A stretch of 64,000 nucleotides of DNA from contig JAIWWG010000109.1 of assembly GCA_025435555.1 (NCBI GenBank), forward strand, positions 27,722-91,721. Direction: 5' to 3'. Below are positions 1 through 45,262 of the stretch, in pieces. The notes under the pieces were generated by a model. The model did not search any database, was not told where the DNA came from, and saw only the letters and a program-made list of their open reading frames with translations. The stretch's first letter is position 1; each line of letters starts with the position of its first letter. The position numbers and the translations under genes were made by a program. The DNA is from Chytriomyces cf. hyalinus JEL632 (lineage: Eukaryota > Chytridiomycota > Chytridiomycetes > Chytridiales > Chytriomycetaceae).

Positions 1-1000
1 CTGTCCACACGCACATGCGCTACAAGGGACGCCATGCTGACCCAGCCCCCGCTGACGCCCACTGCAAACTCGTTCCAAGACAGAGACTGTGTCTCATTGA
101 TGGCCTTAACTGGCGTCCACTGTTTCGAGGGTGTCGTAGATGCTGTGCGAGTCTGAATCGCCCCAAGCTGACGGAGGTAGGTGCTGACATCTCTATGGCA
201 GTGAATTCGAGCCCCATCCATGATCCAGATTGAGTTTCGACCTGGAAACTGTTGCACTTTTCCACTGTGCAATGCAAAGTCGCGGCACACCTCCACAAAT
301 GATGCTCTATCAAAAGTCCCTTCTGTGTATACTGTTTCAAGCAATCCATAAGCGCCTGTGAAACAAGCCAGAGACACTCTCGGAAGTCTCGTAAATTCTG
401 CCCCTCTGACAACCCTTTTCCCCCTTGAGTGCATACCCTCGTTTACACCACATATCCCGATTGTCAAAAGAAACCTCATCATAAAACACAAGTTGTGACA
501 TAGTCCACTGCAGCAAGTTCAGCTCAGAAGTATACCGGACTATATCATCAAGATTGACGTTTATTGCCCACCGTTCTAAAACCTTTTTAAACTGTTTAGA
601 ACGTCAATGCAAAACCAAACATTTTTTCAGATACCTTCCATGTGAGCCCAGCATCATGCATTATTGTCCATACAGTTGTTAAACTGATTGGACTATCCCA
701 CTTTGCAACATATGCTGATCCCACCTCATCTAAAAAGGACAATGGGTTTGCTGTTACGTATCTGACTAGCCACTCCCTTCTTTCAGTACTGTGTTTGCTG
801 TAGACTTTTTCCCGCTGTTTTCTTGATACTGTTCCATCTCTATCGTAGTGTCTGACCCAAATATTCACGCATTGCGGGGTTTTGTGGAGAAGCCTTGCAA
901 CCTCTGTTGCAGGTAAGTTGAGGTAATGGTACATATACAGAGCATGCATCTTTGTATTCTCAGTAGCTTGCGTGCTGGAAACTGCTTTCAAAATGCTCAT
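1..1000 (-). pseudogene. Tc1/mariner-like DDE transposase remnant, cut by the left edge
   Basis: Read on the minus strand, an open frame from 1000 to 596 encodes a helix-turn-helix N-terminus (LPATEVARLL, TPQCVNIWVRHY) typical of Tc1/mariner-type and IS630-like transposases. The frame then shifts and coding similarity continues toward position 1. A first catalytic strand is visible (VFYDEVSFDNRDMW, about 490-440) and, after another frame change near 415, a second (IWIMDGARIHCHRDV, about 235-190), which carries the expected second aspartate. The third acidic residue lies beyond the window or is lost. At least two frame changes make a working protein unlikely; one could be an unspliced intron. 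No terminal repeats were found. Confidence 0.65.
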
Positions 1001-1586
1001 CTGCTCATTTTAAATGCATTTGCTCTTTTAGTGCCATGAAATTCCCAAAATGTCCTTGCCATGCTGGCCTCTGACACCCCCACCACTGCCAGATGCTCAC
1101 CTGTGACTGCAAGATTGATGGCACCGCTTGTGTGTAGATCGTTTTCGCAGGCTGGCTGGCTGCAATGGTGGTGCAAGGGTTGTATAAGTGACTGCACATG
1201 TCTTGATCATGTGAAAGGCCTCCAATAAGAGGTGTTTGGAGTGCATTGTGGCTCTGACTTACTATAAAATATCGATTCTGAGATGCCTGGTGGTCTAAGA
1301 TGCTCTTTTGGTGACAAAGGGGTGACTGCTGGCTTTTTTGCTCCCTTTCGACTGCTGCTTTTTTTCAAATGCACCCAGAAAATTTGGAGAAAAAGCAGCA
1401 ATATCGAGTCCATAAAATCGAGATCAGGAGATACTCACACTTTGATATCTTGAAAAACTGTTTTGAGCAGTATTTGAAAAAGCAGGGCACCATTTGAAAT
1501 ACAGATTAAGAAAAGAGCCCTTTTATTGGTGAAGACAAATGGTGAACTATAAAGTTGAACAATAAAGGTGAACAATAATCAATTTA

Positions 1587-2309: not shown

Positions 2310-3205
2310 GCATGTTGAATATCAGTCTCAAGTGATGGAGCACTGTTTACTTCAATAAAGGTTAATTCTCCCCAATTCATCTCTTATTCTCTACTGCAGA
2401 TAAAGAAGAGTCCTGCACCTCACCATTCCACCAACCTCAATACAAATGGGCATGAATTATGACATTGAGTAGGGTAAACGTCTAGTTGATACTATAACAA
2501 GGAATGAATACACGAATACTCGTATTCTATAAAGGGTGCAGACTTGTAGATGACGATAGCTTATTCCACTACATGATTTCAACTATTCTTGCTCTGATCA
2601 AGCATAAACATGGTTGGAAAGCAAATGTTTAGAATTTATATGATTCTGGCATAGCTGTTAAGGTTCGCGACCACAGACCTGCAGGTCACTGGTTCAACCC
2701 ACACTGCTGCCAACTTCATGCAGCTATCTTCTGATCTTTATAGGGAAATAAGCAGAAGAAGAGGAAATAGAAATCACCTTAGACAAGTATTCTATTACCA
2801 CTTTTGTATGACTAATATGTCAAGCCAGTCAAGCAATTAATCAATAACCTTACCCACTGTGGGGATATTGATTATAATTGACAAGCCTTTGCTGTCAGCC
2901 CAGTTCTGATTAATGAATCAGCCTGAAAACTGATTTGTGAGCAATGACTCACTTTTTCAGCAATTTCAAACTGGAAAATGACAAATGAGTGATTTCACAT
3001 CCATAATGACTTTTCTGACTGAAAATCTCAATTATGACAAATGAAATGGAAAAAAAGGTGGCTGAGAAGTGAAATTGAAGAAAGCCTAATTAGATTTTAT
3101 GGGAGACAAAAATGTATATAAGGAGAGCTGTTTTGATGTGTTGTGATTCACCCTTAAGATAATAAATACTTATCAGCCCAAGTTCAAAACCAAACAAACT
3201 TGGCA
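2310..3205 (+). repeat. Dispersed ~880-bp repeat, copy 1 (copy 2 inverted at 40.3-41.2 kb)
   Basis: This stretch matches the reverse complement of 40310-41160 almost throughout, with scattered substitutions and small indels. Shared landmarks include tattgattataattgacaa and the closing gatgtgttgtgattcaccc with its inverted counterpart. It holds no long reading frame. It could be a non-autonomous element or the untranslated end of a larger one. No clear terminal inverted repeats or target duplications were recognised. Confidence 0.7.
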
Positions 3206-3259
3206 GCAGGAATCCAAGAGATACCGCTGATTTTGAAATCAGTGGTACGAGTCTGAGAG

Positions 3260-3725
3260 GTACGTTGGGTGGCATGAAAAGCGCTGATCTGGACACTCAA
3301 ATGAATGCAGATGTCATTGTGTCCACGTACAACTTTTTGTGCAAAGGAATCTCCATTTGGGGACTCAGCAGTATTTGTTTCGCGAGTCCAAAGAAGGATG
3401 TTGTGCAGAGTCTTGGCCGTATATACCGCAAAATACACTCTGTGAGACCTCTTGTCTTGGACATATTGGACACTCCTCTTTGTGGACAAGAGCGCACTCG
3501 CATCGAAATTTACAAGACTGAACTGTATGGCAATGTCACAATCCTGTAGCAAGTTTTGATCGAAAATATCCACCTGATTCCGACGCTTTGGAGGAACATG
3601 TCCAAATCTGCCAACACAATTCCGAACGCAGCAACGCATCCTCTGCTGAAGAACACTTGATTCATCCGCAAGTTCACCTCCGCCGAATTCCGAAGCTCAA
3701 CCGCCTCAGACAAACGATTTAAGCG
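3260..3725 (+). pseudogene. SF2 helicase C-terminal fragment of large-DNA-virus (NCLDV) type
   Basis: The plus-strand frame starting near 3262 reads GGMKSADLD, then NADVIVSTYNF, a gap, FASPKKDVVQSLGRIYRK, and PLVLDILD. This is the C-terminal RecA domain, including motif VI (QSLGRIYRK), of the superfamily-2 helicases carried by nucleocytoplasmic large DNA viruses, where xGGMK, ASPKxDVxQSxGRxxR and PLVxDxxD are recurrent. A stop at 3547-3549 ends this frame; an acidic, Asn/Glu-rich tail continues in another frame to about 3720. The ATPase half is absent, so this is a fragment. Cellular SF2 helicases are an alternative, but the SPKKDVVQSLGRI block favours a viral-type origin. Confidence 0.6.
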
Positions 3726-4071
3726 AAGCAGATGATGCGCCTGCTGGGACTCCAGAGAGACCAAATGGAACCAGCTAAAACTGCTTTTACTGACCGCAAA
3801 TTGCTCGTATGTATAACCTTGACCAATGCCGTGCAAATTCGAATCCAGCAGTAATCCCAAAAAGCCAACTAAAAGGATTCCCCATTCTGGATCATTGCCT
3901 TCTTCACATAATCATCAATCGCCATTGCCGTTGACACCAGATCCCAAGAGCAACTTGTGGCCAAATATGCTTGAAATATAACATCCCAAAATACATAACT
4001 ATTATTGACAATCGAAAAAAAAAAAAATAAAACATGTCAAAAAAAAACAGAGCGGCAGAGCGAGCGACCAT

Positions 4072-5908
4072 TCAGAACTGCCCGCATGGAATGCTGTCTT
4101 TTCCCTGACATTTCGCAGTCTTGAAAGATGATGTAGCAATGTTCGAATAATGTTGAATAAACTTGTCCACGTCCCCAGAGAAGTGGTACTGTAAGCAGCC
4201 CATGATTGGGTGGCATTGGTTAACAAATGAGCAGGCACCTTCAGTGAGATCAGAACCAGAAGGTGCGCTGGCCAGAATTTCGCTGATCTTTTGCACTTTC
4301 GCAGCTCCTTGTAAACCCTTCACTGTCTCTTGCTCCTTCAGATCATTCTTGCCACCTCACTTTTGCTTCAAAGGAAGAGCCACTGTTGGCTGCACAAGTG
4401 GGGCAGGTGCAGCTCTCTCAACAATAATTGTCTGTCTGTGACTAATCCTTTGCTCAGTTGAAAAGGGTGGCTGAGAGTTCAATTGTGCAGTTGATGTCAT
4501 TGGGTTCATTTCAATGCTCTGAGAAGATAAATGCGGCAGATTGACTGTGCTTGTGTCGGTGTTTGTGTTGGGAGCCATTGCTGCTTTATGTTAAAGCTGC
4601 AATTGAATAACTAACCATCGTCACCTTGTTGCTCATGTGTGTGTTGTTCCAATGCAACTGCTGAGTGTCCCAATTGGTTGTTGATTGTTATTGTGTTCAT
4701 CTGACTGACATCCGCACCATCTCCATCCTCCTCCTCATCATGATCAATCTGAATTACAACTGGCTCAACCCCTGTGTTCTGATATGTTGCCTCTGTCAAA
4801 ATTCGCGAATAGAGAATGTTTAACTTTGCTGCAGTTAATGGATCCACAGTACTCAGAAGCTGATTCAGTTCTTGCCTCAGTGTTTTTGTTCTTGACACGT
4901 TCAAAATAGTGTTTGAAATGTAGATTGGCATGACAACAGGATTATCCATTGCAACCTTGCAATCATGAGTAATAAACTTGACTGCAACTGAGCAGATGCT
5001 TTTGTCAGCAAGAATTCCCAGGTCATGAGCTCGATTCACGCTGTGCGTAAGCTGAAGATCTTGGACAAAAATGGGCCTGAACTTTGGTGCCACAAGTGCT
5101 CCCTCATTTCCATTTCAAACATTTACAACAGCCATCAAGCTCAATGCATCTCTTTTGTAGTGTGTGCCCATGGCTGCAGATTTGTGTCTTGCACATTTGA
5201 ACCCCCCAATATGACAGCAGATATCCCGTTTCCTCATGGTATGTGTGCCAAATGGCCCACTCCGGTAAGGAATACTAATGGCGCATGTGGACTTGATTCA
5301 ACTGAGAACAGTTTCATATGAAATTCCCTCTTTGCAGTGGATGCGGCAACTTGGATCATTTTTGTGAGCTTTCACAATACGGTCCAGCTCATTGCATGAC
5401 GGAAATAGATAGCCACTAGATATTCCTGTCAGATAGATCCATGCCAGAAGATGCTTCAATGGGGCTTTATGCCATCATGTTTTTCACATCAATGTTCCTG
5501 CAGGGATTTCCCCTTCTCCACAGATGAGGCACACCTCTCCTGCAGAGTTGGCTGTCATGATCTCCCAGCAATGCACACATGTATTGCAGGCCTGTCAATG
5601 ATGAATGTTGTTCAATGCATATAATAAAACCCAACTATTAAACCCATACCATTGATGTGCTTTGCATACGCAAGAAGAGAATTGTCTTTGAGGGGCTTGC
5701 TGCCATGTGCAGGAACAGGGGTTGCGCTTTGCGTCAAGCTGAGCCATTCAAGTGAAGCCTTGATCCCAACATCCATTGCTGCTTGATATACCGACTGGAT
5801 CTTGAACCGCTGATTGACTTTGCCACTTTGCAGAATTTGTGTTGTGCATTTAGGAACAACCTCCTTGTCTGGTTCAGCCATCAGACATTGTTTACGGATG
5901 ACAGGCAC
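4072..5908 (-). pseudogene. Crypton-like tyrosine recombinase, decayed
   Basis: The minus strand encodes a protein of the tyrosine-recombinase type found in Crypton elements and related fungal and oomycete genes. Order: an N-terminal DNA-binding-like part (NSLLAYAKHIN, then after an intron GLQYMCALLGDHDSQL), the catalytic region APLKHLLAWIYLTG-ISSGYLFPS, then SYETVLS, GPFGTHTMRKRD (the H-x-x-R box), ARHKSAAMGTHYKRDA (second His and the tyrosine nucleophile), followed by a Gln/Asn-rich C-terminus to 4072. The first catalytic arginine, expected in the LTGxRSGYLF context, reads as serine. There is one frame change near 5480 and in-frame TGA codons at about 5310, 5110 and 4359, so the copy looks dead. 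An intron joins the exons around 4613/4578. Confidence 0.6.
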
Positions 5909-6624
5909 TGTTTATTGGTTCATGTCCAAAAATTGGGTTCAGGTTGAGCATATTTCAACAATATTTATATTGTTCTTGCTGTTTTGTATATATGACTAGT
6001 TTCTAAATTAAGTTTCCCAAGTTTCCCAAATGCTACAGCACACAAAAAAAGTGGGAAACCTGGGAAGACACCATGAAATTTGACCAATTTCACATATAAA
6101 AAATGGGGAGATGTTGGGAAACTTGGCCCTGACTTTAAGGATGTGGTTAAGCAACTTCTCCACAATCACCAAGAACAAGAAGAAAAACCACAGACAGGAA
6201 TATTCCCATTTGTGATATGGACAAGGGCGATCTAACCCAGGAGTAAGTGGATCTGGATGAAGAAGACAATTGGAGCACTCGGTCCCAAGCCACCAGTGGC
6301 CGGAAATGTCAAAGAATGTTCTGCAACACCACCACCCAAACTCAAGACATGTTTTATTTTTGAAGAAGCGGATGACAATGAACAAGTTCAACCTCTGCCA
6401 ATGCGGCCATATTGTCAGCTCCCTCCAACTCGAATCAGACTTGTTGCAGACCATGGTCAAGGTGGACCACTGGTTCTCATTATGTACTCTATACAATAAA
6501 GATAGTGAACTTTATGTACATGAAGAGCAGTAGACATCACTTCTACAGCAAGCACAACAAAAAGCAGAACCCACACGTGCTGATTGCACAAGGCTAGTGA
6601 AGTTATTTCCAATTAACTCCATCA
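5909..6624. other. Repetitive spacer without a convincing gene
   Basis: No coding similarity was recognised. Around 6448-6510 lies the block ggtcaaggtggaccactggt followed by a tgtactc word and an AATAAAG-like signal. The same block recurs at 41.36-41.42 kb and, inverted, at 51.41-51.48 kb, so this is a member of a dispersed repeat family. Confidence 0.5.
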
Positions 6625-6700
6625 CTTATTTAGCGCAGTGGTTAAGACATAATGGTTGGCACAATTGAACCACGGTTCAATACCCATCACCGACTTTCAT
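6625..6700 (+). repeat. tRNA-derived (SINE-like) RNA polymerase III head
   Basis: A consensus-like A box, TAGCGCAGTGGTTAAG (6631-6646), is followed 27 bases later by a perfect-looking B box, GGTTCAATACC (6674-6684). This spacing and sequence fit the internal promoter of a tRNA gene. I could not fold a full cloverleaf with an intact acceptor stem, so a SINE head or tRNA pseudogene is more likely than a functional tRNA. Confidence 0.45.
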
Positions 6701-6779
6701 TGTTTTGACCACTAGCACTTACCTGAGCCTCTAGCAACACTGCCAGGCTGTTGAACTCTGTTAACACACACCACTTGAG

Positions 6780-6940
6780 GTCCTCACCACACCATCAAGG
6801 GTGTCGAATCTATCCTCTATAGAAAACCAGTCGTACTGCACACACATCCAAACACCTTGGCTGAAAACACATACAGTACATAGCTTATGTAGTTGAAACA
6901 AAGGTTTGAGCCTGGATGGGCGCTATTTGAGAAGTAGGGA
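6780..6940 (+). repeat. Dispersed repeat family member (others at 41.7-41.9 kb and 63.9-64.0 kb)
   Basis: The segment shares tagttgaaacaaaggtttga followed by gcctgga, plus an upstream block beginning ctcacca, with 41720-41885 in the same orientation. Its core recurs inverted at the right edge of the window (63940-64000). No coding content. Confidence 0.6.
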
Positions 6941-7103
6941 TCACCAGACCCTCTGGAACAGAGGGGATCAGGGATCTGAATACAGTACACAAAGTAAAAC
7001 GAGAACGCTGCAATGTGCAGACATGGTAGGCAGCACTACCAGTCAGCATTCGATAGCCAGGCATCAGGGCTACCGCTGCCAGGTGCAGCGGTCACGCTAG
7101 CAG

Positions 7104-7735
7104 GTGTTGGGCATCACTCAGAGTCACTTTGTACATTGGTTGGATAGTTTTCGATTTAATCACCAACAGAGCAGCACCAAGGCAAAAGAGCACTCTAGGG
7201 AACAATCTCCACGACTCATGGGCCCTGCCACCCAATTTGAGGTGATTTCACCCCCATGTGAAGGCTGGCTGTGCCCAAAAAGTGGAGATATGTCCCTTAA
7301 AGTCATGACAAACTGTTTTATGTGAAAAGGGTATAAAGGTAGCACCTCAGAATAGGCAATAAACATCAACTTGAACTACTACTCAAATTTATACCCATTG
7401 TACCGCATGCTAGACCCTCCTACACTGACAAGACTCCAATCAGTCCTTTGGCCAGCTCTTTGTTTGTGGAAACAGAAACAATTTCTGAATCTCTCTGAAT
7501 AAAATTTACATCTCTTTCATCACAACAATATATATACAGAGGTATCAAATCAATCAATTCAATTTACACGTGTCCTTTGGCTGGATGGTGACCCGTTTGT
7601 TGTTTGACTACCTTTTTTTGTTCCACCAACCACTTTTTTCTTGCCAGGGGTTGCTTTTTCAACACGTTTGACCCACATTCTTCTTTCTCCAGTTACCATC
7701 CCCTCTCTCTTTTCAATTGCCATATCACTCTTGAT
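7104..7735. other. Non-coding stretch, possibly LTR-like
   Basis: The sequence begins tgttgggcat and contains a TATA-like gggtataaagg near 7330 and aataaac near 7360, an arrangement reminiscent of a solo LTR. No matching partner LTR, primer-binding site or target duplication was found, so this stays a weak suggestion. I see no gene. Confidence 0.2.
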
Positions 7736-8372
7736 TCAAGCATAATTGTTGATGGTCTTTGAGATAATACCTTTTATCTTCAGCATGGCCCAGGCGACTT
7801 TGCAATTTTCCCTCAAATCTTTGAAGGCCACTGGAACAAGTACATCATCCATCGTAACACGCACAAAGAGTCCACCACCAGCATGGATCAAAAGAGATGT
7901 TGTCACAGCATATCCAGAGGCTCTAAAACCCCCAATCCTCAATCAATGCATTTTTTTAGAAGGAGATAGGTACATGAGCAACTCACCGTTACAACACTGT
8001 TCATTTCCATCAACCCATTCTTGATCAAAGATCACTTATTTTTGTCTTTGATTTCTTCAAGTTGCTTCACAGCATACAAATACAGTCCATGGATTGCTTG
8101 GAGCACAGCGTCTTTGTTTGAGATGCCCCACTTCCCATGTTTAATGAATTTATCCACAGTGAGAACGTTCCCTTCTTCAGGTGGTCCAGTCTGTACTTGA
8201 GAAGGTGTAAATGCACTCGTGGAGTGGCGTCATTGTCAGAGTCTGATAGAAGTGTCAGATCCATTGAGTTGAAGGTGATGCAGCAATAAGCAGAGCAAAG
8301 TACTCTTGAAATACTGTTTTCAATGTGTGGGATAACATACGGTGTGGGATAATATACAGTGTGGGATAACAT
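7736..8372 (-). pseudogene. Unidentified, broken coding remnant
   Basis: Two minus-strand blocks have protein-like composition: KFIKHGKWGISNKDAVLQAI (about 8140-8080) and GGLFVRVTMDDVLVPVAFKD (about 7880-7820), separated by a stop and by a gap that could be an intron (GT near 7993). I do not recognise the family. The frame is broken, and the neighbouring sequence is decayed mobile or viral material, so this is probably another relic. Confidence 0.25.
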
Positions 8373-8402
8373 ATGGTGTGGGATAACATATGGTGTGGGA
8401 AT
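8324..8402. repeat. 17-bp tandem repeat, about 4.5 units
   Basis: The unit gtgtgggataacatatg is repeated four to five times with one or two substitutions per unit. It lies in non-coding sequence. Confidence 0.8.
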
Positions 8403-8809
8403 GGTAATTGTGACTTGGCATTTTGCTGACTATCTGGACTAAAGTTGACAGCAAGGAGAGCATTCTGGAATAATTCTGGAATACTGAGGCAGATTGAAAG
8501 TATATTACAAATGTGCTTATTTTCTCCATGGGCTGCAATATTGAGCTGAAGCAGTGAAGACAACCTACATGTTTGATTTTCGGACAAGACATTCAATCAG
8601 CATTTTCAAAGTGAACAAATTGATTCAGAGCATTTGGGTTGCAATGAAAGTCCAGATTCAGCATTGGTCATGCCTGCCCAAAAAATACATGTGTTTTCAA
8701 CAACTCCTGAATCAGAGCCAATTCATTTTTTGAAAGTGACGGGTCACATCCTCATTGTTGACAATGGATCTCGCAGTTCGCAGGTCCCAGCAATACCCGT
8801 GTTTTCAGG

Positions 8810-9373
8810 TCAAGCAAGACTGCACAACTCAACAGGGGTGTTGAATTGAGTCAAGTACGTCAGGTGGTAGGTGGCCTCATCAATCATCCTGGGCACGCAC
8901 TGGCTGAGCAAGATTGTGTCCAGTTTTAGCATCTGTACTCGGATATGCCAAACTAGTTGTCTGGACGGAATCTCTAATTCTGCAGCCTCATCCGCATATC
9001 ACTCGTACACGCCCTCCATAGCCTGTGCTAGTAGTTGGACGTTGGGCTCGTTGACCGTGTAGCCAGAGTTCTTGAGAACGTTCTGTTGGCATAGTTTCTG
9101 CAGGGTGCGAATGTTGTGCGCAGAAAAAAATGTGCAGAATAACAAACTTGGCTCCATGTACAAATTCATCTTTACCTTGACTGACTCGAGCTCCGACGGC
9201 GTAAAAGGTGGGTCTAATGGATCGGCCAGCCTCAACTTTTCTGGCGATGCATTCAGCTGAATGTCTTTGGCTGGGTTTTGGAAGATGGAGGGGTGTTGAA
9301 GCGTGTAATTGTCCGACACCACTGAAAATGATCCAATCGACTCTTGATGCAGATCCATCTGTGTCTTTTGCAC
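8810..9373 (-). pseudogene. Virion structural protein of giant-virus (NCLDV) type, interrupted by one TGA
   Basis: The minus-strand frame from 9373 reads to a TGA at about 8999 and continues in the same frame to a TGA at 8810, about 187 codons. The C-terminal half has the pattern FFSAHNIRTLQKLCQQNVLK, GYTVNEPNVQLLAQAMEGVY, then IPSRQLVWHIRVQMLKLD, VPRMIDEATYHLTYL and a closing TPVEL. NCLDV minor virion proteins share this layout: a helix that begins with a short FS-x-N motif, a polar N-x-L-x-x-x-M block, a LN-like helix, and a final YxxYL before a Pro-rich end. The family call is from memory of that pattern, not from a search. Read with the helicase piece at 3.3 kb and the basic protein at 10 kb, it suggests an integrated viral segment. 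Confidence 0.5.
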
Positions 9374-9720
9374 CTACCATCTCAATTTTTTTTACTCACA
9401 CTCACTTTCCTGCCCTTCTTTTTAGGACTGGAACTCGAGCGTTTTACGCATGGACTTTTCCGGAGATTCTTTTTCCGCCCCACCGTTAATGGGATCATCA
9501 GACTGTGAGCGCGTGACTTGGTGCTGCTACCACCAGCCGTTATTGCTTTTGCCCTTGATCAACTATCGCCATTGGGGGTGCGTTCTTGTCAAACTCGACA
9601 ATCACAGCCACTGGGTCCATGTTAAAGTGAATGTGGTGCATGATTCTTACAGCCACTGCCACGAAAAAAAATACTGCAAAATGGTTTATTGGTGTGATAC
9701 TTCATTTTTATTTGGCATGC

Positions 9721-10008
9721 TTCTTCTTCTTCTTCTTCTTCTTCTTCTTCTTCTTCTTCTTCTTCTTCTTCTTCTTCTTCTTCTTCTTCTTCTTCTTCTT
9801 CTTCTTCTTCTTCTTCTTCTTCTTCTTCTTCTTCTTCTTCTTCTTCTTCTTCTTCTTCTTCTTCTTCTTCTTCTTCTTCTTCTTCTTCTTCTTCTTCTTC
9901 TTCTTCTTCTTCTTCTTCTTCTTCTTCTTCTTCTTCTTCTTCTTCTTCTTCTTCTTCTTCTTCTTCTTCTTCTTCTTCTTCTTCTTCTTCTTCTTCTTCT
10001 TCTTCTTC
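9721..10008 (+). repeat. (TTC)96 / (GAA)96 microsatellite
   Basis: An uninterrupted run of 96 TTC triplets (288 bp) on the plus strand, GAA on the minus strand. It begins two bases beyond the stop codon of the minus-strand basic protein remnant at 10010-10601. Long open frames of poly-Leu, poly-Phe, poly-Glu or poly-Lys across it are artefacts of the repeat. Confidence 0.98.
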
Positions 10009-10009
10009 A

Positions 10010-10601
10010 CTCCTCACCAACCTCGATCTCGATTTCTTCCTTGACAGGGGGTCGGCCCATGGCTTCCTCCTCTCTCACAGAAATAACCCTGTCACTTGAC
10101 TTTGCCGCTGTCTTTGCTGTCTTTGTCACCTTTGGTTCTTTGGGTGTTTTTGGTGCTTTTGCGACCTTCACTTTTGCCACAGCAACCTCAACTGGAGCAC
10201 TGATCCCGACGGGAATTGGGTCAACCACCTTCATGTCCTGCTTCAAAGTTTTGAGTTCCATCGTGTACTTGAATGGGATTTTGATCTTTTGGGTTGAGAA
10301 CTCCACTGCCTTGTCGGCCGTATTCCTTTGCCTCTCCCGCTTTAGCAACCTCACGAATGGAGATTTCAATGGTACATAAGGGCGAGTCCTTGAACAAAAT
10401 TTTGCATGCATGATTTGTAGCCTTTCTTGCTGCCCTGGCTGGAGTACCCAAGGAATATCTGTCAAGCCATTCACGCCAAAAAAGTTTCAAAGTGTCAATC
10501 CAAGCACACTTCGCCTGTTTTGATGAGGACGCCGAAATGAAATTACTTGAACACGTACATTCCAAAAGCCATAAAGCAACGACAGGTAAAGCCGCAACCA
10601 A
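10010..10601 (-). pseudogene. Small basic protein remnant resembling a conserved NCLDV protein
   Basis: Read on the minus strand, one frame gives RYSLGTPARAARKATNHACK, then LCTIEISIREVAKAGEAKEY. A second frame picks up with QKIKIPFKYTMELKTLK and a Lys/Ala/Pro-rich tail (KAPKTPKEPKVTKTAK) ending in acidic residues at about 10010. A small protein with a TPxQAARKA start, an IxExxxxxxKxxxY middle and an IxYKYxxxxK end is recurrent in large DNA viruses. The frame change near 10300 breaks the gene. Function is unknown; DNA packaging is only a guess from the charge. Confidence 0.4.
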
Positions 10602-10650: not shown

Positions 10651-11799
10651 CTAAAAGTTCGCTTCACTTCTCTCACGCAGCCACCACACTTGAAAGACTC
10701 CACAAATATTTTTCCGTATTTTATCATCGAATATCAAAACAACGATCGAGTTCAACACATCCTGCATGGCAAGTGCCATCTCGGCGGCAAACTCAAACGC
10801 AAGACTCGCGTCCGCGTTTGTCAGAAACTCGTAGAAAGCCATTACGTAATACGGCGTCCACCCAATCACAAACAGCGACACGATCGCGACACTCTGGACC
10901 AATAAACCCGTTTCCTCCGCCGTTCTCTTTTTCCTGTTGATGGATTTGATTCGTTCGATTTGGCTAATTCGCGCAGATCCTTTTCTTTGAGACTCTTCAT
11001 CCGCAGCAGCGGGTGCATCGGCGGTCCATGATGCGATGGAGTTTCGCTGTTCAGAGAGCCTTCTACCAGTCCATGCAATATCGTGACTTTGTCTCTTGTT
11101 TTGCGATACAGGTCCACCACTTTCAGGTACCGAAATCTGGCTTGGCCGTCGAAGGTCTGAAGATGGAGCCTTGATAGTCTCTTCAGAAGCAAGCGAGGCA
11201 TTTCGTAACGCAATAAACACGTTCGAAACCTCCCGGTAAATGCAGTAATACGCGTATCCCATGCTCGACAACGGCGCCATCAGCATCAAGCCGCACAGTA
11301 CAGAAATAACTCGCGTCGCAATTTCAGCGCTGGACCACGTGATTGTACAGTTGAACCACGTTGGATGAAGAACATAGATTGGGCGGTCCTTCTTGAATAT
11401 CATTGGGAGAGAAGCAATGATTGAGACGACCGCTACTACTCCGCCTGCATACAGGAGGGTGAAATGGAGTGATATTGTCTTCTTGCGGACAATGATGAGG
11501 TGCCTAAACAGAGTTAAACCGCCGCAAAACCCCAACGACATTAAACCGCCAAGGAGGGTAAGAAATCCGGGTATGTCGCAGGCCCAGGGCTCATACTCGG
11601 AATCTACCCTTTTCAAATTTACGGCAGCTTGAGTGAGGTAATTACCCAACAGCACGGCAGCATAGAAATATGATCAAGACGGAACTTGGAGGCAGGCTGT
11701 GAAGACGCCAAATATTCGGCAGTACCACAATTGCATTGAGAAGCAGGCCGGTGGATGTAATCGATATTGCCGTCTTAAGTATTGTTGCACCGTGTTCCA
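10651..11799 (-). pseudogene. Rhodopsin-like GPCR, copy 1, frameshifted in TM2
   Basis: A seven-helix receptor in two frames. The first frame starts at ATG 11799 (MEHGATILKTAIS) and encodes TM1 and the start of TM2 (PPSSVLIIFLCC), then shifts near 11655. The rest (AVLLGNYLTQ to the C-terminus at 10651) holds TM2-TM7, with FRH after TM3, a long Ser-rich third cytoplasmic loop, WTPYYV in TM6, and SIVVLIFDDKIRKN after TM7. It aligns along its length with the adjacent copy 2. In copy 2 the TM2 sequence is LCCSDSLLLSNYL; here about eight bases appear to be missing at that point. This is either a real pseudogene or a sequence error. An intact version would be a plasma-membrane receptor of unknown ligand. 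Confidence 0.7.
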
Positions 11800-12037: not shown

Positions 12038-13216
12038 CTACCGCTCAGCGCAATTAAATACTTGGAGCACGTTGCGGCGAATCTTGTCGTCGAACACCAT
12101 CACCACCACCGGATTCAGCAAATCGTTCATCGAAACAAACATTTCCGCCACAAACTCATAATCCGGATGAGCTTTCGTTCCCGTCAAAAGCTCATACACA
12201 CCCATTGACAGGTACGGCGTCCAGCCAATCAGAAACAATCCCACAATTGCGATACTTTGCATCAACAGCGCCACCTGCTTTGCTTCTTCCTCCGTCCGCG
12301 CTTTCTTCTTATCCACCTTTGGTTGGCGCTGATCTTTTTCGGTGATTGAAATCTTGCTGCCGTTCTCTGAAGTGATGTTTGTATCGTTCGCTACTTTGAC
12401 TGGACACACCGAAATGCTGAATGGCCGATGTCCCTCTGGATGTTTCCCGTCCTGATCGACTGTCTTTGATTCCCTTATATTATTTCCAGTCAAGTCTTCA
12501 TTCATCATGACCGACGATGCGCGATACGCGCCAAAGACTTTAGAAACCTCAGAGTATATGCGCACATACACGACACCAATGCTCGAAACAGGGATCATGA
12601 GGACCGACAAACAAATCCACGACACGACGCGAGTCGTTACGTCAGTGTTGAACCAAGCCACGGTGCAGTTGATTTGCGTTTGGTGCATGATGTAAATCCG
12701 ATCGCCGGCATTGCAAATGAACGGTAGCCCTGCTACAAGTGCGCAGAAAGCTGCGGTACCGAGTAGATATGTGTATGCAAACTGATGGGAGACGGATGTT
12801 TTACGGATAATGATTTTGTAGCGGAAGAGCGTGAGACCCGTGCATAGTCCCAGTGACCAAAGAGCGCAAAAAGTGATGAAAAAGCCTTGGATTTGACAAA
12901 CGACCGCGTTGTACTCAAAATCGCCTCTTCGGAGGTGCGTTGCAGCCAGGGCGAGGTAGTTGGACAGAAGGAGTGAGTCACTACAGCAGAGACAGACGAT
13001 CAGGAGAGAACTCGGGGTTAAGCTGCGAACCCGCCAGAAATTTGGAACAATAACGATCAGGTTGATCAGTATTCCGACGGAAGCTATTGCCGTGGTGGTC
13101 GTGGAGTATGTCCATTCGCTTACGTACATCCGGATGATGAAAGAAATATTTTTGCAACGGCGTTTGGGGCAACGCAAGGACAATGCAGTTTGTTGTTCTT
13201 TCAAAGAGGCGATCAC
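12038..13216 (-). CDS. Rhodopsin-like (class A-type) G-protein-coupled receptor, copy 2
   Basis: A single 392-codon frame encodes a complete seven-helix receptor. TM1 starts near residue 38 (TTTTAIASVGILINLIVIV); TM3 ends in TLFRYKIIIRK (an E/DRY-like position); the third cytoplasmic loop is long and polar (about residues 230-300); TM6 holds FLIGWTPYLSMG (WxP-like kink); TM7 ends NPVVVMVFDDKIRRN, matching the NPxxY region with the tyrosine replaced. A conserved extracellular Cys pair is plausible (VCQIQG, INCTVAW). A later ATG at MYVSEW would still precede TM1, so the start is uncertain. It probably signals through heterotrimeric G proteins; the ligand cannot be read from sequence. It is a tandem paralogue of the frameshifted copy downstream. 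Confidence 0.8.
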   Translation of the reverse strand: MIASLKEQQTALSLRCPKRRCKNISFIIRMYVSEWTYSTTTTAIASVGILINLIVIVPNFWRVRSLTPSSLLIVCLCCSDSLLLSNYLALAATHLRRGDFEYNAVVCQIQGFFITFCALWSLGLCTGLTLFRYKIIIRKTSVSHQFAYTYLLGTAAFCALVAGLPFICNAGDRIYIMHQTQINCTVAWFNTDVTTRVVSWICLSVLMIPVSSIGVVYVRIYSEVSKVFGAYRASSVMMNEDLTGNNIRESKTVDQDGKHPEGHRPFSISVCPVKVANDTNITSENGSKISITEKDQRQPKVDKKKARTEEEAKQVALLMQSIAIVGLFLIGWTPYLSMGVYELLTGTKAHPDYEFVAEMFVSMNDLLNPVVVMVFDDKIRRNVLQVFNCAER

Positions 13217-13305
13217 AAACTGGTTGTCAACATAAATTTGGACGCGTTTTTACGTAAAATCAAAAGTAAAAAAAATAAATCCTGTTAAATCCAACAACAA
13301 ACGCA

Positions 13306-43568: not shown

Positions 43569-45262
43569 CTAACGCTGTTCAATTGTCGCCCCTGGTCGAT
43601 TGTGCGCGTAACAAGTTTGCTGATTATGACCTCCCTCATTGCATATAGAGCACTGAATTGGTGATTTTTCAGGCTGTAAATCCGAACGATTTCGGATCCT
43701 AATTTTTTGAGGCTGTCCATGCGGGTTTTGCACAAGTGGTGGTTTGATTGGAATTGGCTCCAGGTCAGTGGTAGAAATATGGTGCACAACACCTCCGTAC
43801 AGCAATTTTAGCTCACTTGTCAAATATTGAGGGCAGATGTACAAAAGAACATTTTCTTGCTTATTTCGAATGGCAGCCATGGCATGCGAACAAGAGAATA
43901 AATATTGCTGAAACTCACCGCACTGCAAATTTTGGAGTCCAAAGAAACCATGAATTCAAGGCTGTTTTGAGTCACAACCAAAAACTCGACTTCTGAAGTA
44001 GGGAAAACTGTCATCTGAATGCGTAAATTTTCATTTTCGTCCAGCTCTTTTTGGCGCACTACTGGAAGTTGCCCAGCCAGTTGATTGTAGTGGGTCTGAT
44101 GTTGCAGAAAAATGTCTGCAATTTTGCGGGTAATTCCAGCAATGATCCCAAAGTGGCTTTCATCACTGATCTCATTGATCCAGGAATTAAAACACTCGGC
44201 CATATTTGATGTTACATGCCCAAAATTTGGAACACGTAAATGAGATGTAGTCCAAGCCGGCAACAGCAATCTTGTCAAAAAATTGTGACCTTCATTTGAT
44301 TCCAGACGGATCTCCTCCATACTACGTGCAAAGACAGATTGTTTAATATCTTTGGCTGCTTTCCATAACCTCTCTTTAAGATTGATACCCTTGGTCTTCA
44401 GGTTCTTTTCCAGGTGCTTCACACAATAGAAATGGCTGCTGTATGTAAGGATCTGAGCCACTGCCTCATAGATCCCCTTTTCTCTGTCTGAAAGGACCAA
44501 CAACAGGTGATTTGCATCGTTCATTGCAGGAATTCCCTCCAGCATGGTTCTGACAAACCAAATCCAATGTTCGGTGTTTTCAGTCGGCACAAGTCCAAAG
44601 GCTATTGGCACCATTTGTCCATTTCCATCTAAAGCTGTAGCACCCAGTAAAACCCCTTTGTATTCATTCTTGATATGACACGCATCAAATGCCACTATTG
44701 GCAGGCAATGCACAAACATGTTTTGCAAGACATTGAGGCTTGTAAAACACTGAAAAAATCTCCTGTCTCGATTTTCAGAACAAACTTTGCTTCCTGGCAT
44801 CAAGGCATCCACTTGATTTAGAAATGGCTTGATCTTGGCAAAAGATTCACTTGCTTCGCCAAACATTTGATTAGCAGCTAGCTTTTTGCTACAGTAGCTC
44901 TTCATGTAGCTCACTTCTAATCCCTTTTCTTGCCGCAAAATGTTGCGTAACATTGCAGGTGTCACTTTTGCATCATCATTCAGATTCCTTGTGATAGCAG
45001 TCAAGACTGATTGAGGCACCTTGATTTGTCTGTTCAGAAACACGTTGCAGACATGCTCAAGCTCCCATTGTGACACATGAATTTTTCCATCTGCACGCTT
45101 GTTGCAAGAGATTTCGAATCCTGGGCATATGGAAGGACAATGGATGTGGTACTTGACTTTGTTGGAAGACTTGGTTCAAAATGGCCAGTAGTTGTCCATA
45201 CGGAGCTGCTTAATCACTGCCCATATGACAGGGATATCATCAAACACACTTTCAGAATTCAT
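43569..45262 (-). pseudogene. MULE transposase with SWIM zinc finger and zinc knuckle, one stop and one frameshift
   Basis: Starts at ATG 45262 (MNSESVFDDIPVIW). An N-terminal DNA-binding part (NKVKYHIHCPS, CNKRADGKIHVSQW) leads to the catalytic core: VAFDACHIKNEYKGVLLGAT (first Asp), LVLSDREKGIYEAV (second Asp), NMAECFNSWI (Glu). After the core come a SWIM finger (CGEFQQYLFSCSHAMAA) and a CCHC knuckle (CSICNEGGHNQQTC), ending at 43569. Lesions: an in-frame TGA at 45178-45176 and loss of one base near 43920, just before the SWIM cysteines. All key residues are otherwise kept, so the copy died recently or the lesions are sequence errors. An intact relative elsewhere in the genome is expected. 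Confidence 0.85.

Follow-up and report, generated by a model that had tools for sequence, protein, structure and literature searches.

The 64,000-nucleotide stretch analysed here (hereafter the window) belongs to a 242-contig, 37.8-Mb genome assembly deposited as Chytriomyces cf. hyalinus JEL632, where it occupies positions 27722-91721 of the 91,721-base contig C12. It carries broken genes that very probably derive from nucleocytoplasmic large DNA viruses (NCLDVs, Nucleocytoviricota), tentatively PBCV-1-like (Paramecium bursaria chlorella virus 1), which were inserted in host nuclear DNA, decayed and were copied; a second, fuller insert lies on contig C42. Bare coordinates below are those of the window, and C42, C199 and similar names denote other contigs of the same genome. 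One NCLDV insert would have left a run of genes for the capsid protein P8, a small basic protein and a larger basic protein. In the host this insert would have decayed, acquiring stops within its frames, deletions, frameshifts and an expanding microsatellite, and the decayed insert would have been copied within the host to C12 and C199. A far more complete insert from a related virus would persist on C42, and the tail of an A18-like helicase gene in the window is most likely another remnant of a virus of this kind, severed by a repeat. As these families generally act, P8 would have served capsid building in the virus and the helicase late transcription, and the basic proteins may have bound DNA in the virion. 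The window pieces are most likely functionless now.

The P8 and basic-protein relics

An earlier note on this DNA, based on its letters and reading frames, described a virion-protein-like frame at 8.81-9.37 kb on the minus strand. This frame is now identified as P8: the open reading frame (ORF) at 9002-9373 (minus strand) matches Pfam family P8_CR (PF19065) with E 2.8e-6 and 27.8 bits, above the curated cut-off of 26.9, and the longer stretch with stops read through, which contains two TGA codons, reaches 46 bits (E 1.2e-10). The P8_CR match and the alignment to C42 place the relic of this minor capsid protein gene, with short flanks, at 8694-9370 on the minus strand (coding part compared, 8810-9358). 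Alignment with the C42 copy shows two stops in its frame, along with two deletions that keep the frame. A profile search of the genome yielded P8_CR above its cut-off at three places, on C12, C42 and C199, and in 0 of 14 control genomes, which are all bacteria and archaea and make a weak control. P8_CR is the sole viral family above its cut-off among the 33 different ORFs scanned in the first 10.9 kb of the window (sets of 10 and 24 with one in common, frames of the CTT tract excluded). A viral origin of the P8 relic is strongly supported. The sequence common to C199 also holds, downstream of P8, a 17-bp tandem repeat of 4.5 copies (8325-8400).

Comparison of the contigs at the DNA level (matches of at least 60 columns) reveals three collinear pieces: 8694-9370 with C42:14677-15428 (79% over 752 columns), 9372-9741 with C42:17947-18320 (86% over 377 columns) and 9987-10458 with C42:18299-18775 (81% over 501 columns). 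On C42 the first two pieces are separated by about 2.5 kb, occupied by a transposon that has terminal inverted repeats and a TA at each end and sits just upstream of the P8 start. It carries a transposase related to the broken one at window 3-1009 (36-60% identity), and C12 and C199 preserve the site in its natural, empty state.

A small basic protein had also been reported at 10.0-10.6 kb. A broken basic gene does lie there, at 10007-10460, but the region holds two basic genes, each with an open relative on C42. The larger relic (10007-10460, minus strand) corresponds to a 258-codon open frame at C42:18322-19095: segments 10025-10330 and 10308-10460 (minus strand) match its product at 85% and 76%, in two frames, with a frame break near 10308-10330 and the first 106 residues unmatched. 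Directly downstream of the stop of this gene is a (CTT)96 microsatellite (9720-10008), much longer than the short CTT tract at the corresponding place in C42; the poly-Glu/Lys/Arg frames at 9.6-10.0 kb are simply this tract. The smaller gene is additional to the earlier list. It is a frameshifted, very basic, SPKKK-rich relic on the minus strand at 9382-9652 (ends approximate, mapped by alignment) whose counterpart at C42:17957-18229 is a 90-codon open frame with SPKKK-like motifs, placed between P8 and the larger basic gene. A viral origin of both basic genes is strongly supported through their collinearity with C42, and the assignment draws on their position and on the codon pattern described below. 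The 258-residue protein matched nothing at E below 0.6 among PDB sequences. A likeness of it to archaeal MC1 found no support in Pfam and is not claimed.

The earlier note was right that its three reported genes are truncated or broken, the helicase being truncated and the P8 and basic genes interrupted, frameshifted or truncated, and that the relics lie beside host genes: the three-gene fragment of 1.8 kb abuts a gene of a 7tm_1 (rhodopsin-class) receptor (10654-11673, minus strand, Pfam E 3.5e-14).

The viral gene set of contig C42

Contig C42 has 69,440 bases, and 30 of its ORFs were scanned with Pfam. The segment C42:10946-53136 has the make-up of a much fuller endogenous viral island, with genes for the major capsid protein (MCP), P11, P8 and a family-B DNA polymerase (PolB) beside kinase, RING and Fic genes, and is invaded by mobile elements. 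The MCP gene at C42:51175-52461 (Capsid_N 2.5e-24, Capsid_NCLDV 1.3e-18) is directly adjoined by that of the minor capsid protein P11 (P11_C 1.1e-11), and the C42 P8 matches P8_CR with 5.8e-11. The best solved relative of the MCP is 8h2i MCPv1 (1.3e-33), which we take to be a PBCV-1 structure; 1m4x, named PBCV-1, follows with 6.9e-15. The C42 P8 protein had no PDB match. PolB is encoded in two overlapping frames at C42:36487-40106 (exonuclease 5.5e-41, polymerase 7.4e-66) and differs from a delta-like copy on C221, to which its alignable part is 41% identical. Since its best solved relatives in the PDB are cellular delta polymerases, its viral label rests on context. The kinase is haspin-like. 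The earlier note had proposed a genome scan for further viral markers and had named their absence from the same chromosome among its refuting conditions; MCP and PolB, and P11 besides, are present in the same genome, though on another contig than the window, where no MCP was found.

From 59.5 kb on, C42 encodes host-type proteins, an AFG1-type ATPase and cNMP-binding proteins. Its large frames at 41.5-45.9 and 53.7-57.3 kb, presumably Copia-type retrotransposons, both match a long retrotransposon-like frame at C12:19402-22473. These host-type genes and retrotransposon-like frames, together with the transposon upstream of P8, make C42 look integrated rather than free. It is very improbable that C42 represents free virus, contamination or a chimaeric assembly, with the window relic alone being endogenous. 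Several viral frames of C42 are open, as such an origin would have it, but the host-type genes, the retrotransposon-like frames, the Tc1-type insertion and the split of PolB into two overlapping frames speak against it. The joins to host DNA, of the window relic as of C42, are those given by the assembly alone.

A 579-residue ORF of C42 has broken relatives at C188:894677-896622 and C111:463154-464804 (47-63% identity, several stops). They may be additional, older remnants of viral origin or belong to a mobile element, and are not used as evidence.

Copies, lineages and the helicase tail

The P8 copies of C12 and C199 share two in-frame stops. The two in-frame deletions of C12 are absent from C199, which has an extra stop. 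The likeness of the two contigs extends past the part matched by C42 (C12:36005-36410) and takes in other DNA of several kilobases; C12:22483-27882 and C199:19926-34750 have several kilobases in common, about 90-97% identical and rearranged. Because of the shared stops and the other shared DNA, the C12 and C199 copies are most simply seen as host duplicates of one already broken insert.

Over 183 codons of P8 (two sites with three states excluded), the counts of changes at codon positions 1/2/3 are 11/7/37 on the C42 side, 10/9/11 on C199 and 2/2/5 on C12. Rates of nonsynonymous and synonymous substitution (dN/dS) calculated for P8 by NG86 are 0.048/0.504 for C12-C42 (181 codons; YN00 0.057/0.325), 0.094/0.552 for C199-C42 (218 codons; YN00 0.116/0.349) and 0.057/0.159 for C12-C199 (180 codons; YN00 0.070/0.095). 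The small basic gene gives 0.031/0.395 (50 codons) and 0.073/0.336 (36 codons) by NG86, with 0.032/0.174 and no value by YN00; the larger one gives 0.078/0.616 (47 codons) and 0.064/0.225 (98 codons), with 0.095/0.370 and 0.080/0.140 by YN00. On these codon patterns, the C12 and C42 copies appear to have diverged under purifying selection. Judged by the NG86 values and the codon positions, the genes would have been working while the C42 and C12/C199 lineages diverged, which most simply means two related viruses, so that two related viral lineages were probably inserted.

Duplication in the host of a single viral insertion would also place the C12 and C42 copies in the same genome with the same gene order, and YN00, which gives the 98-codon piece of the larger basic gene a ratio close to 0.57, would suit it. 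In dead host duplicates, however, the first, second and third codon positions should change almost equally, the pattern of C199 (10/9/11), and the NG86 ratios come to about 0.1 for P8 and range over 0.08-0.29 across four pieces of the basic genes; this origin is thus considered unlikely. Taking the insertion of two lineages further, chances look evenly balanced that at least two related PBCV-1-like giant virus lineages infected this fungus itself and entered its nuclear DNA, and that the P8 - SPKKK - basic run is a conserved virion cluster of an undescribed fungus-infecting group.

The helicase tail at 3265-3549 (plus strand), recognised by alignment and fold search, is what remains, at the 3' side, of an A18/UvsW-type superfamily II helicase gene: everything upstream is missing, and the frame stays open as far as its stop. 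The earlier note had placed a helicase C-terminal domain at 3.26-3.7 kb; the A18/UvsW-type end holds, with a giant-virus A18 first in the fold search, but the open frame (3166-3546) falls short of 3.7 kb because of the stop at 3547-3549. The ORF matches no Pfam family at E up to 1. Its residues 34-121, within the last 95 or so, align with the ends of UvsW-type helicases at 20-52% identity, and the stop is about as far past the conserved tyrosine as in some of them; by sequence the tail matches UvsW-type helicases of phages and the LlaGI/LlaBIII enzymes. A structure predicted from the single sequence was useless (predicted local distance difference test, pLDDT, 29). Modelled in an alignment of the window fragment with 30 helicases from viral contigs, the tail reached pLDDT 64 and a predicted template-modelling score (pTM) of 0.52. 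That model gave 340 matches at E up to 10 in a library of viral structures, three of them at E up to 0.001. The top match is the Pandoravirus A18 helicase (E 2.4e-4), the third the LCMiAC02 A18 helicase. Among the best 50 of the 340 matches, the first 11 comprise nine named helicases of giant viruses, an asfarvirus or an iridovirus and two nameless proteins, and the first named phage UvsW ranks 14th. Foldseek against the PDB returned nothing below E 0.1, the best solved structure standing at E 0.11. The alignment and the weak fold model together give moderate support to a viral origin, and an A18-like viral tail is the likely identity of the fragment.

A helicase of the host or of a transposon would be an unlikely source, even if the tail borders a repeat, has no Pfam match by itself and sits in a genome with 108 Helicase_C matches. 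No other copy was found in the genome, the sequence matches are the phage and LlaGI/LlaBIII enzymes named above, and giant-virus A18 proteins lead among viral structures, with the best solved structure only at E 0.11. Whether the tail came with the other relics is a separate matter. The earlier note had suggested one decayed viral island of 7.4 kb, later shuffled by transposons. All pieces do lie inside 7.3 kb of transposon-rich DNA, with P8 an NCLDV family and the helicase A18-like. Yet collinear viral DNA extends only over 8694-10460, no family exceeded its cut-off in the ORFs scanned between 3.55 and 8.69 kb (weak matches such as Birna_VP3, E 0.046, fall far below), and the tail adjoins a multi-copy repeat. 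No helicase copy was found on C42 either, though C42 may itself be partial. A single island is accordingly not established, and an origin of all window pieces in one insertion appears somewhat less probable than not. The repeat, at 2313-3196, ends just before the helicase homology and matches C42:331-1110 and C199:28777-29646, stretches that also match C12:14192-15051 and C12:68034-68886.

Several points weigh against the proposal of inserted and decayed NCLDV fragments. Scans of viral contigs with the helicase, MCP, P8 and PolB found no relative. Searches for the packaging ATPase (A32) and for VLTF3 brought no match, a weak negative since the same method missed the C42 P11 that hmmscan finds. 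YN00 indicates weaker selection than NG86 (P8 0.057/0.325; the 98-codon piece 0.080/0.140), the C12 branch, with nine changes, is too short to judge, and one of the two shared stops lies close to where P8 ends and might mark an earlier terminus of the gene. C42 could be a chimaeric contig. The basic proteins are called viral because of their position, the 258-residue one having no Pfam family above cut-off in two scans that did not include the small one. No second copy of the helicase was found in the genome, C42 included; its model is weak (pLDDT 64), the structure library holds viruses only, and its alignment was filled from viral contigs of which those checked look like phages. Alignment-guided scans of the viral contigs had yielded 23 distant polymerase loci and 30 helicase loci. 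Pfam was run on nine ORFs from three of these 53: L040 encodes phage tail domains and PolB, L074 a DnaB helicase, L039 a ribonucleotide reductase and a papain. In tblastn, ORFs of the host genome matched the 23 polymerase loci through PolB and two other short, weak alignments. PolB also matched 47 phage records, weakly, and MCP none.

Known systems and host setting

Endogenous giant viruses in early-diverging fungi have been reported before (PMC5294986, PMC10640383), and the present case is a well-supported new example. PMC5294986 describes NCLDV proteins in three fungi among 392 fungal genomes, Gonapodya and Allomyces carrying islands and Gonapodya also an MCP; PMC9894930 repeats earlier fungal cases. 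As in Gonapodya prolifera and Allomyces macrogynus, small viral islands lie amid eukaryotic genes, and the Gonapodya island, phycodnavirus-like, pairs MCP with a DNA polymerase (PMC5294986). The present genome differs in its P8 and P11 minor capsid genes, unmentioned in the text accessible there, in a dead P8-cluster copy on further contigs, and in showing no chitinase among the 30 ORFs scanned on C42. The same source warns that algal prey may be the origin of NCLDV genes in fungi (PMC5294986), a caution that applies here too.

In Rhizophagus irregularis, according to PMC10640383, Nucleocytoviricota DNA forms a continuous, transposon-poor endogenous region of 1.5 Mb, Asfarviridae-like and without MCP. 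Here MCP is present, transposons have invaded, and the nearest solved MCP relatives are led by PBCV-1 capsid proteins. Eight giant endogenous viral elements of another host, Euglena gracilis, likewise display transposon erosion and duplication (PMC12455990). The families MCP, P8_CR and P11_C matched here are those of PBCV-1 capsid proteins, from which the present proteins are divergent. Giant-virus helicases of the vaccinia A18 type resemble the tail in C-terminal motifs and fold, only its last 95 or so residues being present here. A search for papers on endogenous giant viruses in chytrids found none; it covered mostly open-access literature without bioRxiv, and an earlier report on this genome is possible. 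The broken window genes and the fuller C42 set suggest that relatives of giant viruses once inserted in this probably fungal organism. A single contig carrying MCP, PolB and two families of minor capsid protein, together with the dead P8 cluster elsewhere, apparently of a second lineage, provides sequence handles for seeking a living virus.

Eighteen exon-level matches to the chitin synthase family in the genome (0 of the 14 bacterial and archaeal controls) point to a probably fungal, chitin-synthase-bearing host. C12 is regarded as host DNA because the window holds genes for the receptor, PP2C, fasciclin and serine dehydratase. An Rfam scan of the window gave nothing above the gathering threshold. 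TTAGGG-type telomere repeats were absent from the pieces examined, and a subtelomeric location is not claimed. A broken Tc1/IS630-type transposase occupies 3-1009 (minus strand), its frame continuing past the window start (HTH_23 E 9.1e-5, just under the cut-off); DDE_3 matched 2 of 24 window ORFs scanned, with best E 0.0062. Pfam also identifies a MULE transposase frame at 43823-45175 and a second 7tm_1 receptor at 12041-13249 (minus strand). Three related receptor genes lie on C12 (C12:10294-11451, window 10654-11673 and window 12041-13249), 39-50% identical and two of them scanned as 7tm_1, a number on one contig that is, to our knowledge, unusual for most fungi.

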